64,000 nt of DNA from assembly GCF_000970305.1 (NCBI RefSeq), contig NZ_CP009517.1, positions 3,038,001-3,102,000 on the forward strand, read 5' to 3'. A program made the position numbers and the translations under genes. Within the stretch, counting starts at the first letter, position 1, and each line of letters begins with the position of its first letter. The DNA is from Methanosarcina barkeri 3. GTDB taxonomy: Archaea; Halobacteriota; Methanosarcinia; Methanosarcinales; Methanosarcinaceae. The notes below the pieces were generated by a model. It was not told the origin of the DNA. It saw only the letters and a program-made list of their open reading frames with translations, and did no database searches. Positions 25,887 to 58,515 of this stretch are shown piece after piece.

Positions 25887-26014
25887 TAAATTAAATTCAA
25901 AATACCTGGAATTAAACTCAAATTACCGGGAATTAAATTCAAAATACCTGGAATTAAATTCAAAATACCTGGAATTAAATTCAAAATACTTGGAATTAAA
26001 TTTGAAATACTCCA
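25887..26014. repeat. 21-nt tandem repeat, about six units
   Basis: The unit GGAATTAAATTCAAAATACCT runs in exact 21-nt register with few changes, ending about 60 bp before the aminotransferase gene. Because 21 is a multiple of three, the minus strand reads NLIPGIL repeats in a 75-codon frame. I regard that as a by-product. The rest of 25519-26074 has no gene. Confidence 0.85.
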
Positions 26015-34838: not shown

Positions 34839-34867
34839 CGACTTGAAAATCAGTTACTCTACCCCAT

Positions 34868-35029
34868 AATTCAGCCCTCTTGAGCGAACGAAGTGAGCGA
34901 AAAGGGCACCGTCCTCCCGAGACGGAACTCGGGTGACGGAACTCGGGTAATTCAGCCCTCTTGAGTGAACGAAGTGAGCGAAAAGGGCACCGTCCTCCCG
35001 AGACGGAACTCGGGTGACGGAACTCGGGA
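34868..35029. repeat. 81-nt GC-rich element in direct tandem (two copies)
   Basis: Two adjacent copies (34868-34948 and 34949-35029) differ at two positions. Each contains GAGCGAACGAAGTGAGCGA flanked by GCCCTC and AAGGGC. This is followed by CCCGAGACGGAACTCGGG, a 6-bp hairpin, and a second ACGGAACTCGGG. Composition is far richer in GC than the surroundings. It looks like a dispersed repeat of the genome lying between priL and gatC. Confidence 0.9.
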
Positions 35030-39260: not shown

Positions 39261-39470
39261 TTGATAAAAACTGGTAAAAGAAGACCGATAAAAAAGACTG
39301 ATAAAGAAGATTAAAATTGATAAAAGGAAATTGACAAAAAAAACTGATAAAAGGAAATTGATAAAAGGAAATTGACAAAAAGAAACTGATAAAAGGAAAT
39401 TGATAAAAGGAAACTGATAAAAGGAAACTGATAAAAGGAAACTGATAGAAACTGATAAAAATTGATGAAA
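39261..39470. repeat. Tandem array of a 14-nt word (CTGATAAAAGGAAA)
   Basis: About a dozen units of C/TTGATAAAAGGAAA with point changes and variable A-run lengths follow the nitrilase start region. The right half is very regular; the left half is older. The minus strand gives a low-complexity Phe/Ser frame that I do not accept as a gene. Confidence 0.8.
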
Positions 39471-46083: not shown

Positions 46084-47414
46084 TGTCATGGCAATTAAAC
46101 TATTGAGTATAATCTTTGCCTAGTACTATGATTCCGAAGTATATTCACGAAACTTGATGCTTGAATCAATTCAAAGATAACGAATTTACTATTAAATAAG
46201 AAATTTTTGGATTCTAAGCGTTGGTGTAAAAAAATTTAGTTGTTGACCATATAATAAGCTCAGAAATGAGCTCAGAATCACTGTACTCTGATAAGAAGCT
46301 ACTTTTGAAAATGGTCCCAACCCTTTGAACGTGATCTATTGATTAATAGACCCTCTGAAAGATGATTGATTTTTTAATGGATATTAAGTCTTATTTGTTC
46401 AATTAAATCTGTTTCAACCCTTTCTCGGCTATACTGCATTCACTAAATATTTTATTTGTTATTTAAGTGTGTTATATACTTTAATTAATAAATTAAATAT
46501 TGATTTTTCCTTACATTTAGCATTGAATTTCTAATGAGTGAAAATGACATCAGATGCCTTAATAATGCACAAACAAAGGTTGTGGGCAAATAAAGTTTTT
46601 ATCGCATATATTTGTCAATTTTAAATATTATTATAGCTGTTTTATTAAAAAAATCGGTTTTTAGAGTGTAACTTAATTGAGGAAACTCTAAATAAACTCT
46701 AAATGAACTCTAAATGAACTCTAAATGAACTCTAAATGAACTCTAAATGAACTCTAAATGAACTCTAAATGAACTCTAAATGAACTCTAAATGAACTCTA
46801 AATGAACTCTAAATGAATATACATTGTCCAAAATAAGCATTCTATAACCTTAATTTTATCACTGATTTAAAAGGATTCTATTAGTGTTGGGAGATCTCGA
46901 ATATTTAGTTTAAGTGAAACCTGAATTCTTCTTACTGATTCAGATTTTTAATCAAAAAACACAAAAATCACTAGATTTTAGAACAGGGCATAAAATGTTA
47001 ATTGTTAGATACTTTGGTAATACAAATTATATAGATGTTTATAAGTTGTAATGTTTGGGATTCAATCGAGTGTGGAAATTAACGATTGGAACCCAAAATC
47101 CAGAGACTCTATCAGTTGCTTACAAAACGAGATCAAAAGAAGTAATTTTGAGTTTTGGGATCAACTCACTGCTAACAATTAAAGTTTAATTTTTGTATAA
47201 AACAGATTATGAAAAGTGAAACAGTTGTATAGAAAAATAGAATTTTAAGTTTGTGAGACCACAGACAGAGAAGAAAAATAAGTTGTCTGTTATTTTCCAC
47301 AAAAAAATGAACCTATTTTATATACTCAAATAAAAATGGAAAAGTTTAAAACTTTATAACAAATCAAAATTATTTGTATTATCTATGGAAAAATGAAATG
47401 AGTAGGTATAGGAC
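46084..47414. other. 1.3-kb gene-free spacer
   Basis: AT-rich without acceptable ORFs, tRNA or rRNA. It holds the 11-nt tandem array described separately. It is the longest gap in the window and lies in the accessory region between the regulator and the beta-helix protein. Confidence 0.7.
46683..46815. repeat. 11-nt tandem repeat, twelve units
   Basis: The unit AACTCTAAATG is repeated twelve times in register; only the first copy has a mismatch. The near-perfect identity shows recent expansion. An 11-nt step is about one helical turn, so all copies face one side of the DNA. Confidence 0.95.
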
Positions 47415-54515: not shown

Positions 54516-54608
54516 GAGAAAGAATTAAATAATATGGTCAAGTACTGTACTGTCAAGTACTTTACTACTTGCCACTTGACAATGTTGCCGGCACTTGACA
54601 ATATTGCC
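54516..54608 (+). promoter_or_regulatory. Promoter/operator region A: 15-nt repeats and ACTTGACAATATTGCC box
   Basis: It starts GAGAAAGAATTAAATAATAT, the same words as region B at 55430. Two 15-nt units follow at 54537-54551 and 54552-54566 (GTCAAGTACTgTACT, GTCAAGTACTTTACT). Two copies of ACTTGACAAT(G/A)TTGCC lie at 54574 and 54593. The last box ends 38 bases before ATG 54646. Region B has the same box at the same 38-base distance from its ATG. Confidence 0.75.
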
Positions 54609-54645: not shown

Positions 54646-55275
54646 ATGAACACACAATGTACGGAAAAAACCGTAAACAGACCAGATGTGAAAGGAGGAA
54701 AGATGAAAATCATTGGATTTATCGCAAGCCCGCGAAAAGAAGGCAATACCGCCTGGATCATCAACCAAATACTCGAAGAGGCGCAAAAACAGGGTGCTGA
54801 AACGCAGTCCTGGTCTTTCGGCGATCTTGATATCAAACCTTGCCGGGGTTGTTTGGGATGTCATAAAGACGATGGCAATCGAGGTTGTCTTATCAACGAC
54901 GACATGCAGCAGCTGTATAACGCGCTTGCGCACGCCGATGCCCTGGTGCTTGGCTCACCGGTGTACATGGGACAGATGAGTGCCCAGGCGAAGATATTCA
55001 CCGACAGGTTGTTTGCGTACATCTCTCCGCGTTTTTCTCCGCATTTCAAAGAAAAAGCCATGAAAAAAAAGCTGCTGCTTGTGTTTACGCAGGGGAATCC
55101 TGATGCCAGCTTTTTCCAGGAGTATTTTGATTATACGAAAAAGATGTTTCAGCTGCTGGAATTTGATGTGAAAGAGGTACTTGTCGTCGCCGGTATGCGA
55201 GATAGACCGGCACATGAAAGAAAAGATCTGCACACTGTCTTGAAGGATGTTGGTTCATCGCTGGTTTCGGAATGA
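54646..55275 (+). CDS. NADPH-dependent FMN reductase / iron-sulfur-flavoprotein type protein
   Basis: The flavodoxin-like protein has KIIGFIASPRKEGNTAWIIN for the FMN phosphate loop. CRGCLGCHKDDGNRGCLIND, a cysteine cluster that may bind Fe-S, and LVLGSPVYMGQMSAQAKIFTDR follow. ATG 54646 (209 aa) has GAGGTGA and stands 38 bases after the promoter box. ATG 54703 (190 aa) has a stronger AAAGGAGG and is where most relatives begin, so either could be used. Codon choice is richer in G and C than in nearby genes (for example GCGCTTGCGCACGCC), suggesting transfer. It probably reduces quinones or other oxidants. Confidence 0.85.
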   Translation: MNTQCTEKTVNRPDVKGGKMKIIGFIASPRKEGNTAWIINQILEEAQKQGAETQSWSFGDLDIKPCRGCLGCHKDDGNRGCLINDDMQQLYNALAHADALVLGSPVYMGQMSAQAKIFTDRLFAYISPRFSPHFKEKAMKKKLLLVFTQGNPDASFFQEYFDYTKKMFQLLEFDVKEVLVVAGMRDRPAHERKDLHTVLKDVGSSLVSE

Positions 55276-55429: not shown

Positions 55430-55563
55430 GAGAAAGAATTAAATAGTATAGTCAAGTACCATACTATCAAGTACTTTACTATCTGGTACTTTACTATCAA
55501 GTACTATACTATCAGGTACTTTACTATCAAGCGGTTTACTATCGAGTACTTGATAATATTGCC
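55430..55563 (+). promoter_or_regulatory. Promoter/operator region B: seven 15-nt repeats before the MarR gene
   Basis: Seven units in exact 15-nt register run 55451-55555: consensus ATCAAGTACTTTACT, with variants ATCTGGTAC, ATCAGGTAC and ATCAAGCGG. Each holds the half-site AAGTACTT or a near form. The last unit runs into ACTTGATAATATTGCC (55548-55563), which ends 38 bases before ATG 55601. The leading GAGAAAGAATTAAAT is shared with region A. Two neighbouring genes therefore carry copies of one control region, with a different number of units. Confidence 0.8.
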
Positions 55564-55600: not shown

Positions 55601-56317
55601 ATGAGTGAAATAAAAAATGAGATATTAGAACAGTTTATACGCTTGCAAGGATTGCTGCATCGCTACCATACGCAACATTTCATGGAATTTGGACCGTTGG
55701 GCAACCCGCACAGAGGACAGGGGCGTGTGCTCTCTATTCTAAAGTTGAAGCCGGAAATAAGCCAGAAAGAATTAACTTACCTGCTGGATATGAGCAAGCA
55801 AGGTTTGGCGGAACTCCTTAATAAACTGGAAAAGAAAGGCTATATCAAGCGTGAACCGGTAGAGGAAGATCGTCGCAGCTTCAATATAAAACTCACCGAA
55901 GAGGGTGCTACCGTTGCCGGCGAGATTGATGACATGCCGCTTGATCTGGATAAAGTGTTTGACTGTCTAAGTGATGAAGAACTTGCTAAACTCTATGAAT
56001 ATTTGAAACGCATCATTGGATGCCTTGAAGATCAATTACCAGGTGATGATAATGACTTGCGCAAGCAGATGATGGAGAGGTTTATGGAACATTATCTCCA
56101 CGGAAAACATGGAGACGATTTCTCAGGTTTATTTGGAGGCAGATTCCCTCATGGGCGGGGTAGCAGGAAAGGTCATGACGAAAGGAAGCAGATGATGGAG
56201 ATGTTTATGGAACATTATCATCATGGAAAACATGGAGACGATTTCTCAGGTTCCTTCAGAGGCAGATTCCCTAATGAGTGGGGTAGCAGGATAGATGATG
56301 ACGAAAGGAATGAGTGA
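55601..56317 (+). CDS. MarR-family regulator with duplicated His/Met-rich C-terminal tail (238 aa)
   Basis: Residues about 25-145 are a MarR winged helix: GRVLSILKLKPEISQKELTY, MSKQGLAELLNKLEKKGYI and REPVEEDRRSFNIKLTEEG. The tail, 155-236, is a 41-residue unit in tandem: KQMMERFMEHYLHGKHGDDF and, with few changes, KQMMEMFMEHYHHGKHGDDF, each followed by an S-G-F-R-G-R-F-P segment. The DNA repeats in 123-nt register (56063-56185 and 56186-56308). His, Met and Asp content suggests metal binding. It probably controls its own promoter and that of the FMN reductase through the 15-nt array. ATG 55601 has AAAGGA eleven bases upstream. Confidence 0.85.
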   Translation: MSEIKNEILEQFIRLQGLLHRYHTQHFMEFGPLGNPHRGQGRVLSILKLKPEISQKELTYLLDMSKQGLAELLNKLEKKGYIKREPVEEDRRSFNIKLTEEGATVAGEIDDMPLDLDKVFDCLSDEELAKLYEYLKRIIGCLEDQLPGDDNDLRKQMMERFMEHYLHGKHGDDFSGLFGGRFPHGRGSRKGHDERKQMMEMFMEHYHHGKHGDDFSGSFRGRFPNEWGSRIDDDERNE

Positions 56318-56640: not shown

Positions 56641-57390
56641 ATGGAACCGATAATTGAAGTCAAAAACCTGGTCAAAACTTTTGATTCCAGAGGGAAAAAA
56701 ATCACCGCAGTGAATGATGTTAGCTTCAATGTTTTTAAAGGAGAAATTTTTGGCATGATAGGACCAAATGGAGCTGGCAAATCCACTACTTTTTCCATGC
56801 TGACCACACTAACAAAGCCTACAAGCGGCAGTATAAAAATCGCAGGCTTCGATGTTGAAAAACAGGATGATAAGATAAGACCTATTATCGGCATAGTTCC
56901 TCAGAAACTTAGCCTTTATCCACTTCTTACAACCAGGGAGAACCTTGAGTTTATGGGAAAACTTTACAATCTCCCAAAAAAGGTAATGGAAGAGCGAATT
57001 GATTATTATCTAGAACTTGTAGGCCTTGAAGATAGTGCTGATAGTTTTACAGAAGGCTTTTCAGGTGGCATGAAACAACGCCTTTCAGTGATCTGTGCAA
57101 TGATGCATGACCCTCAAATCTTGTTTTGGGATGAACCTTCAACAGGTCTTGACCCTCAGACAAGGCAAGCTATCTGGAAACTCGCTAAGAAATTCAATGA
57201 AGATGGAAAAACACTGATATTTACAACTCATTACATGGAAGAGGCGGAAAATATCTGTGATAGGGTTGCTGTAATGAATTCAGGCAAAATGGTAGCTCTG
57301 GATAAACCGGAAGTTCTAAAGAAAACCTCTGGGAGTTCAAATCTTGAACAGGTGTTTATGCACTTTGCGGGAGAGGAGGTGTATAATTAA
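56641..57390 (+). CDS. ABC-2 type exporter, ATP-binding subunit
   Basis: The 249-aa ATPase has Walker A GPNGAGKSTTF, the Q-loop in GIVPQKLSLYP, signature FSGGMKQRLS, Walker B ILFWDEPSTGLDP and the switch histidine in FTTHYMEEAENICDR. This is the DrrA/NatA-like group that exports drugs, ions or lipids. Directly adjacent to the permease gene (stop and ATG touch). It follows the MarR gene by 323 bp, a gap that may hold its own promoter. Confidence 0.95.
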   Translation: MEPIIEVKNLVKTFDSRGKKITAVNDVSFNVFKGEIFGMIGPNGAGKSTTFSMLTTLTKPTSGSIKIAGFDVEKQDDKIRPIIGIVPQKLSLYPLLTTRENLEFMGKLYNLPKKVMEERIDYYLELVGLEDSADSFTEGFSGGMKQRLSVICAMMHDPQILFWDEPSTGLDPQTRQAIWKLAKKFNEDGKTLIFTTHYMEEAENICDRVAVMNSGKMVALDKPEVLKKTSGSSNLEQVFMHFAGEEVYN

Positions 57391-58515
57391 ATGACAATAA
57401 AAACGGAACTAATAAATTCATTAGCGGTAGCGGAAAAAGAATTCAAAATTCTTTCCAGAAGAAAAGGGGTTGTAATTCCTTTGTTATTATTCCCCTTAGT
57501 AATGATGATTTTTTTTGGCTACGGAATGGGAGGGACGTTAAGAGACGCTCCTTTTCTCATTGTCAATAGCGACACTGGCCAGGCATCAAGTTCTCTTATT
57601 CAAGAAGTTGGAAGTTATACTTCAAAATATGATGGATATCCAATGTTTTCTGTGACTTACACAAAGGACATGTCGCAGTCTGAAGCAGAGAGTAAGATAA
57701 ACTCAGGAGTTTATAAAGGCGCTCTAATTATTCCACCGGATTTTAGTGATAACATAGCAAAAAATCAGAGTACCACTTTAACACTTTTGACTGACTCCTC
57801 AGACACTACCGCAAGTGAAAGTATTATAAATACCATTAAACAGTTGTTGACAACAACCGGGTTATTAACAATAACCGGACTAGTATCTTTAAACATTCCT
57901 AACATTTACGGCAGTCTGGAATACCTGGATTTCCTCACACCTGGCATTATAGCCCTTACGATATTTTTTGGTTCAGTAATGACCACAGGTTCTGCAATTG
58001 CAGAAGAAAAAGAATCCGGCACACTTATTCGCATGTTAATGACACCTATTAGTAAAAGATCTGTTATTCTCGGGAAAACTATCTATCAGCTAATACTGGA
58101 ATTAGCCAAAGCTGTAATCCTGATACTTGTAGCTTATTTTCTTGTAGGATTCCGCATAAATGGTAGCTGGCTTCTTGTTGCTCTGGTACTGATTGTTTTT
58201 ACTCTTGGTGGTGTCGGAGTGGGGATAATTTTGTCGGCTAAGGCAGAAAGTATGGAATCTTTTGATCAATTAGCCATGCTGGTCACTATGCCATCCATGT
58301 TCCTTACAGGTGTGTTTTTTCCTTTGAGTTCGGCTCCAGTCTGGATGCAGTATTTAGCGCGTTGCGTACCTCTGACTTATGCAATTGATGCTATGCGTAC
58401 CATCATGGTAAAGGGTCAGAATTTGAACGCCATATCTACTGATTTGATAATACTCACTCTCTTTGCAATTGTTACCTTTACTTTAGGTGTCCATCTATTC
58501 AGGAGGGAAGCATAA
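57391..58515 (+). CDS. ABC-2 type exporter, permease subunit
   Basis: The 374-aa membrane subunit has an N-terminal helix (about 28-46), a large outer domain (about 50-170), and five C-terminal helices with EEKESGTLIRMLMTPISKRSVILGK, the ABC-2 signature, and MFLTGVFFPLSSAPVWMQYLARCVPLTYAIDAMR. It forms the channel with the ATPase before it. The substrate is unknown. The gene for a secreted protein follows at once, with AGGAGGGA placed inside the end of this gene. Confidence 0.93.
   Translation: MTIKTELINSLAVAEKEFKILSRRKGVVIPLLLFPLVMMIFFGYGMGGTLRDAPFLIVNSDTGQASSSLIQEVGSYTSKYDGYPMFSVTYTKDMSQSEAESKINSGVYKGALIIPPDFSDNIAKNQSTTLTLLTDSSDTTASESIINTIKQLLTTTGLLTITGLVSLNIPNIYGSLEYLDFLTPGIIALTIFFGSVMTTGSAIAEEKESGTLIRMLMTPISKRSVILGKTIYQLILELAKAVILILVAYFLVGFRINGSWLLVALVLIVFTLGGVGVGIILSAKAESMESFDQLAMLVTMPSMFLTGVFFPLSSAPVWMQYLARCVPLTYAIDAMRTIMVKGQNLNAISTDLIILTLFAIVTFTLGVHLFRREA

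Follow-up and report, generated by a model that had tools for sequence, protein, structure and literature searches.

The question raised by this locus is whether the tandemly doubled C-terminal tail of a MarR-family regulator in Methanosarcina barkeri 3 marks a new kind of sensor, or is a variation on a tail that its relatives also possess. The gene was analysed within a window of 64,000 nucleotides (the whole stretch of DNA under study), and the features of this window that are considered here, all on the forward strand, are as follows.

54538-54567, forward strand: two more operator units, ahead of the gene for the flavin reductase
54646-55275, forward strand: NADPH-dependent FMN reductase-like protein (PF03358, E 3e-22), a probable target
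55452-55556, forward strand: operator-like array of seven 15-bp units (TCAAGTACTTTACTA) in register, a degenerate form of the palindrome GTCAAGTACTTGAC
55601-56317, forward strand: open reading frame for a MarR-family winged-helix regulator of 238 aa (PF12802, E 3.5e-12; PF01047, E 1.3e-10; both above the gathering cut-offs)
56054-56176, forward strand: tail unit 1, 41 aa (residues 152-192), a short predicted helix followed by a low-confidence H/G/R/F-rich stretch, and the orthologue of the one unit found in Bacillota homologues
56177-56299, forward strand: tail unit 2, 41 aa (residues 193-233), a tandem copy of unit 1 restricted to this lineage
56641-57390, forward strand: DrrA-type ABC exporter ATPase (PF00005; top NCBIfam model TIGR01188 DrrA, under its cut-off), a probable target
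57391-58515, forward strand: ABC-2 type permease (PF12698, E 1.3e-43), a probable target

The MarR identity given in the preliminary description is borne out by both Pfam MarR models, with scores of 46.8 bits for MarR_2 (cut-off 27 bits) and 41.4 bits for MarR (cut-off 24.6 bits), and the operator array, flavin reductase and ABC exporter placed beside the gene are all real. The flavin reductase (54646-55275) also contains a CX2CX2CX7C stretch (PCRGCLGCHKDDGNRGC) which, as read from its sequence, resembles those of iron-sulfur flavoproteins. Two independent programs agree on the 123-nt direct repeat coding for two 41-residue units: a repeat search recovered 2 x 123 nt (56052-56174 and 56175-56297) at 85 % identity, and Tandem Repeats Finder reported positions 56063-56310 with a period of 123, 2.0 copies and 88 % matches, the score of 398 being the highest among its forty rows in the window. 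An adjacent 123-nt match at 85 % is not due to chance. The repeat occupies the final third of the gene and its reading frame is intact and without a stop, the units reading in frame as DLRKQMMERFMEHYLHGKHGDDFSGLFGGRFPHGRGSRKGH (56054-56176) and DERKQMMEMFMEHYHHGKHGDDFSGSFRGRFPNEWGSRIDD (56177-56299). A spurious or broken repeat is ruled out by this preserved frame, together with the occurrence of the repeat in Methanosarcina spelaei. Between the two species, the first units are 89 % and the second units 95 % identical, with first and second units sharing only 78-85 %, and the duplication thus predates the split from M. spelaei. The whole genome from which the window derives contains a single copy of the MarR gene. 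Other tandem repeats in the window include those at 46684-46817 (11-mer x12, 99 %), 34867-35028 (81-mer x2, 98 %), 39314-39447 (14/42-mer array) and 25889-26010 (21-mer x6).

The tail is uncatalogued. A search with the 41-residue unit alone, as proposed in the preliminary description, matched no Pfam or PDB domain; the Pfam search returned nothing at E-values up to 10, the phmmer search against the PDB was likewise empty, and the profile search gave a chance match alone (E 0.89), by which a known domain is rejected. In the AlphaFold2 monomer model (mean pLDDT 65), the protein resembles the MarR family (PF12802 / PF01047) in its winged helix and in its N- and C-terminal helices, at residues 3-25 and 125-145 of a structure modelled as the monomer alone. 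One helix opens each unit (151-166 and 190-206), with the remaining tail below a pLDDT of 50; this part of the model is of low confidence and derives from a shallow alignment of 22 sequences. In it, every unit consists of a short helix and a disordered remainder. The best PDB matches, Tm0710 (2a61; E 1.1e-07) and SlyA (4aih; E 3e-07), cover the MarR core and, unlike the window MarR, are without a tail. Matches to PDB structures end by query residue 152, and the one or two 41-residue units are added C-terminally.

Close relatives of the gene occur in 3/112 Methanosarcinaceae genomes, which rules out a family-wide trait of Methanosarcina. In addition to the window genome, the carriers are M. spelaei MC-15 and the metagenome-assembled genome Methanosarcina sp. 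ERenArc_MAG2. In the phylum sample the gene was found in 1/393 genomes, with none added at E 1e-12, and no relative was found on viral contigs, by which a viral origin is ruled out. M. spelaei encodes one two-unit copy (L036/L044) and one single-unit copy (L037/L047), and ERenArc_MAG2 encodes a copy with a single unit (L038/L045) and one whose first unit precedes a second unit with a frameshift (L039/L046). Unit number thus differs among paralogues, with two in the window MarR and L044 and one in L045 and L047. ABC exporter genes follow both the one-unit (L037, L038) and the two-unit (window, L036) paralogues. The preliminary description had named orthologues that lack the tail in an unchanged context as evidence against its proposal, and this holds in part, in that L037 and L038 are without the second unit and keep the exporter. 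As one-unit paralogues also adjoin exporters, the second unit represents a lineage-specific tandem duplication that is dispensable for the context. ERenArc_MAG2 further contains a shortened MarR copy that continues in frame into a fragment of an ABC ATPase (L050). This fusion of the MarR N-terminal part and the ABC ATPase, at L039 14899-15477, appears to have originated by an inter-gene deletion.

Among 84,980 species genomes scanned, Clostridiaceae orthologues of 61-66 % identity were recovered, and further searches, using either the protein or a profile of the unit, covered the Clostridium family and a sample of Bacillota. Orthologues were found in at least six Bacillota genomes (BL-3, G576, G579, G444, G1019 and G696) at 61-68 % identity, each with exactly one unit, the closest bacterial orthologue (L194) being 68 % identical. 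The Bacillota and Methanosarcina units can be aligned at 55-61 % identity, and the BL-3 group has the identical unit type to the window MarR, but one copy instead of two. In a tree of the core (11 rows), the five Methanosarcina and six bacterial copies group together (support 96/95), with the Methanosarcina copies forming one clade (99/95). The window MarR thus belongs to this clade by core phylogeny, and departs from its trait of exactly one unit. Unit homology, the variation between one and two units and this phylogeny, as well as the operator conservation described below, are read directly from the sequences. Considering the placement in the tree and the patchy archaeal presence, the MarR gene was probably acquired from Bacillota, with the direction of this transfer inferred. 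At the bacterial loci examined, the one-unit MarR genes do not adjoin an ABC exporter, and the genomic context was therefore not kept across the transfer.

The operator at the gene's own promoter, a trait of the MarR family, was found as pairs in the Bacillota and as a degenerate array in the window, where the adjacent efflux genes are a further likeness to that family. The palindrome GTCAAGTACTTGAC is also present at the promoters of Bacillota orthologues, and a paired operator of two GTCARGTACTTGAC copies lies upstream of the start codon in 6/6 of these, with variants in one BL-3 copy (GTCATGTACTTGAC) and one G576 copy (GTCAAGTACCTGAC). In BL-3, one operator copy supplies the -35 TTGACA of a sigma-70-like promoter, an arrangement that would be expected of an autorepressor. 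When four Clostridium genomes were scanned allowing at most one mismatch, every operator match was located at a MarR gene or a decayed MarR copy. Decayed copies in Clostridium genomes (L143 16365-16526 and L184 11459-11627) retain the tail, and that of L143 also retains the operator and promoter. Among the Methanosarcina MarR genes, there are seven operator copies in the window, five at L036, four each at L037 and L038 and five at the L039 copies, and between two and four precede the flavin reductase gene. The exact perfect palindrome is absent from the Methanosarcina genomes with the gene, and its one-mismatch form was found in the window genome alone. A longer form of the 15-bp unit occurs in the window genome only at the MarR gene, the flavin reductase gene and one stray site. 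A large regulon is ruled out for the exact operator by the scans of the window genome and four Clostridium genomes. The 324 nt separating the MarR gene from the ABC genes showed no copy of the operator. The conservation of the operator across the transfer supports a role of the protein as a repressor that would bind these putative sites.

It is therefore probable, although by no means certain, that the gene encodes an autoregulated MarR repressor whose phylogeny places its origin in the Bacillota, with an accessory and mostly disordered tail of which one unit suffices. We infer the repression, its targets and the contribution of the tail as follows. The repressor would probably occupy the TCAAGTACTTTACTA repeats that lie shortly past the TATA-like region of its own gene and also those ahead of the flavin reductase gene. 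It would so silence itself and probably also the reductase, whose gene has sites of its own, until a presumed effector triggers its release. The ABC exporter may be expressed by read-through from MarR. Against this account stand the lack of an operator between the MarR and ABC genes and the different gene context at the bacterial loci examined. The flavin reductase and drug-type exporter suggest that the effector is a redox-active or toxic organic compound. The tail would extend the protein C-terminally past its final dimerisation helix, as is typical of this MarR clade, and may tune properties such as repressor contacts or stability. Of this tail, one Methanosarcina lineage has doubled in frame the single unit of its bacterial relatives.

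The preliminary description knew of no MarR subgroup with such a tail, which no longer stands considering the one-unit Bacillota orthologues above and the differently spelled, compositionally similar tails in a wider group of Clostridia and Bacilli MarR proteins. Its interest in the unit count is answered in two parts, the tail being common to relatives and the second unit special to this lineage; it is the doubling, rather than the tail, that is distinctive. Members of the wider group (among them Clostridiaceae BL-3, Enterococcus and Listeria floridensis) share the core NPHRGQGRxLxxLKxxPExxQKELxYLLDM and the tail composition with the window MarR, but differ in their genomic neighbours. Pooled over 36 group rows, which take in the Methanosarcina and Clostridium orthologues, the tails are also enriched in Gly, Arg, Phe, Pro and Asp in addition to His. 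In one Enterococcus genus the gene is present in 17/22 genomes, and all fifteen tails read are Gly/His/Arg/Phe-rich. Such tails, and their growth by repetition, are on the evidence of these sequences a habit of the Clostridia/Bacilli MarR group. Literature searches on tailed MarR regulators found nothing relevant, no characterised repressor of this clade was found in the papers searched, and the group appears to be undescribed in them.

It is unlikely that the tail is a functionally nearly neutral low-complexity extension, which lengthens and shortens by slippage like many C-terminal tails. Such an origin would fit the spread in tail length within the group (11 to 109 residues), the independent three-fold TPEMxEHLxxHG repeat of the clostridial member L133, the varying HG micro-repeats of the enterococcal tails and the richness of the window in tandem repeats. 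Furthermore, dN of the unit is several-fold above that of the core between Methanosarcina copies, where its dN/dS is 0.33-0.63 versus 0.06-0.41 for the core (with approximately 40 codons per unit). However, the units remain alignable between Bacillota and Methanosarcina, and among Clostridium orthologues the dN/dS of the unit is well below 1 and similar to that of the core (0.12-0.23 versus 0.11-0.16, again for approximately 40 codons per unit). These ratios indicate purifying selection on the unit in Clostridium and faster evolution in Methanosarcina.

More doubtful still is the idea, raised in the preliminary description, that the tail senses metal or heme. On this view, conserved His, Asp and Glu residues would bind a transition metal and alter DNA binding, with the exporter and reductase responding. 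AdcR-type metal-sensing MarR regulators, the model for this reading, have a MarR fold with metal sites in the core and not in a tail, whereas the candidate ligands of the window MarR are located in the tail instead. The conserved His and Asp make metal binding a possibility: E8, H13 and D21 are invariant across ten tail units, H19, E12 and M11 are present in nine of the ten, His makes up 8.1 % of the pooled tails versus 2.6 % of the cores, and the selection on the unit in Clostridium points in the same direction. However, the paralogue L047 is without H19 and its frame is still intact, the tails outside the BL-3/Methanosarcina clade are alike in composition but not alignable to the 41-residue unit and share no alignable ligand positions, and the linked exporter belongs with the DrrAB drug exporters and not with the metal ATPases. 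Binding of heme is unsupported, as the tail units contain no heme motif and Tyr14 varies among the ten. A bridging of neighbouring repressor dimers on the 15-bp array by the tail units, with the unit number growing with array length after transfer, is very improbable, the counts that it would fit being seven and five operator copies with two intact units, four and four with one unit, and two in one-unit bacteria.

Under the favoured autoregulated repressor, the doubled tail is a genuine, modest lineage-specific variation and not a new kind of sensor. A bacterial-type repressor apparently retained its DNA site on transfer to a methanogen, where two operators became a longer array and a clade-specific tail was doubled, providing a small natural experiment on the role of disordered tails in MarR regulators. 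A second methanogen, Methanobrevibacter curvatus, has a like arrangement of regulator, exporter and array: a related MarR (L058 1650-2440; 47 % identical) is followed by a DrrAB-type ABC exporter and preceded by an array of ATACTTGA-like repeats.
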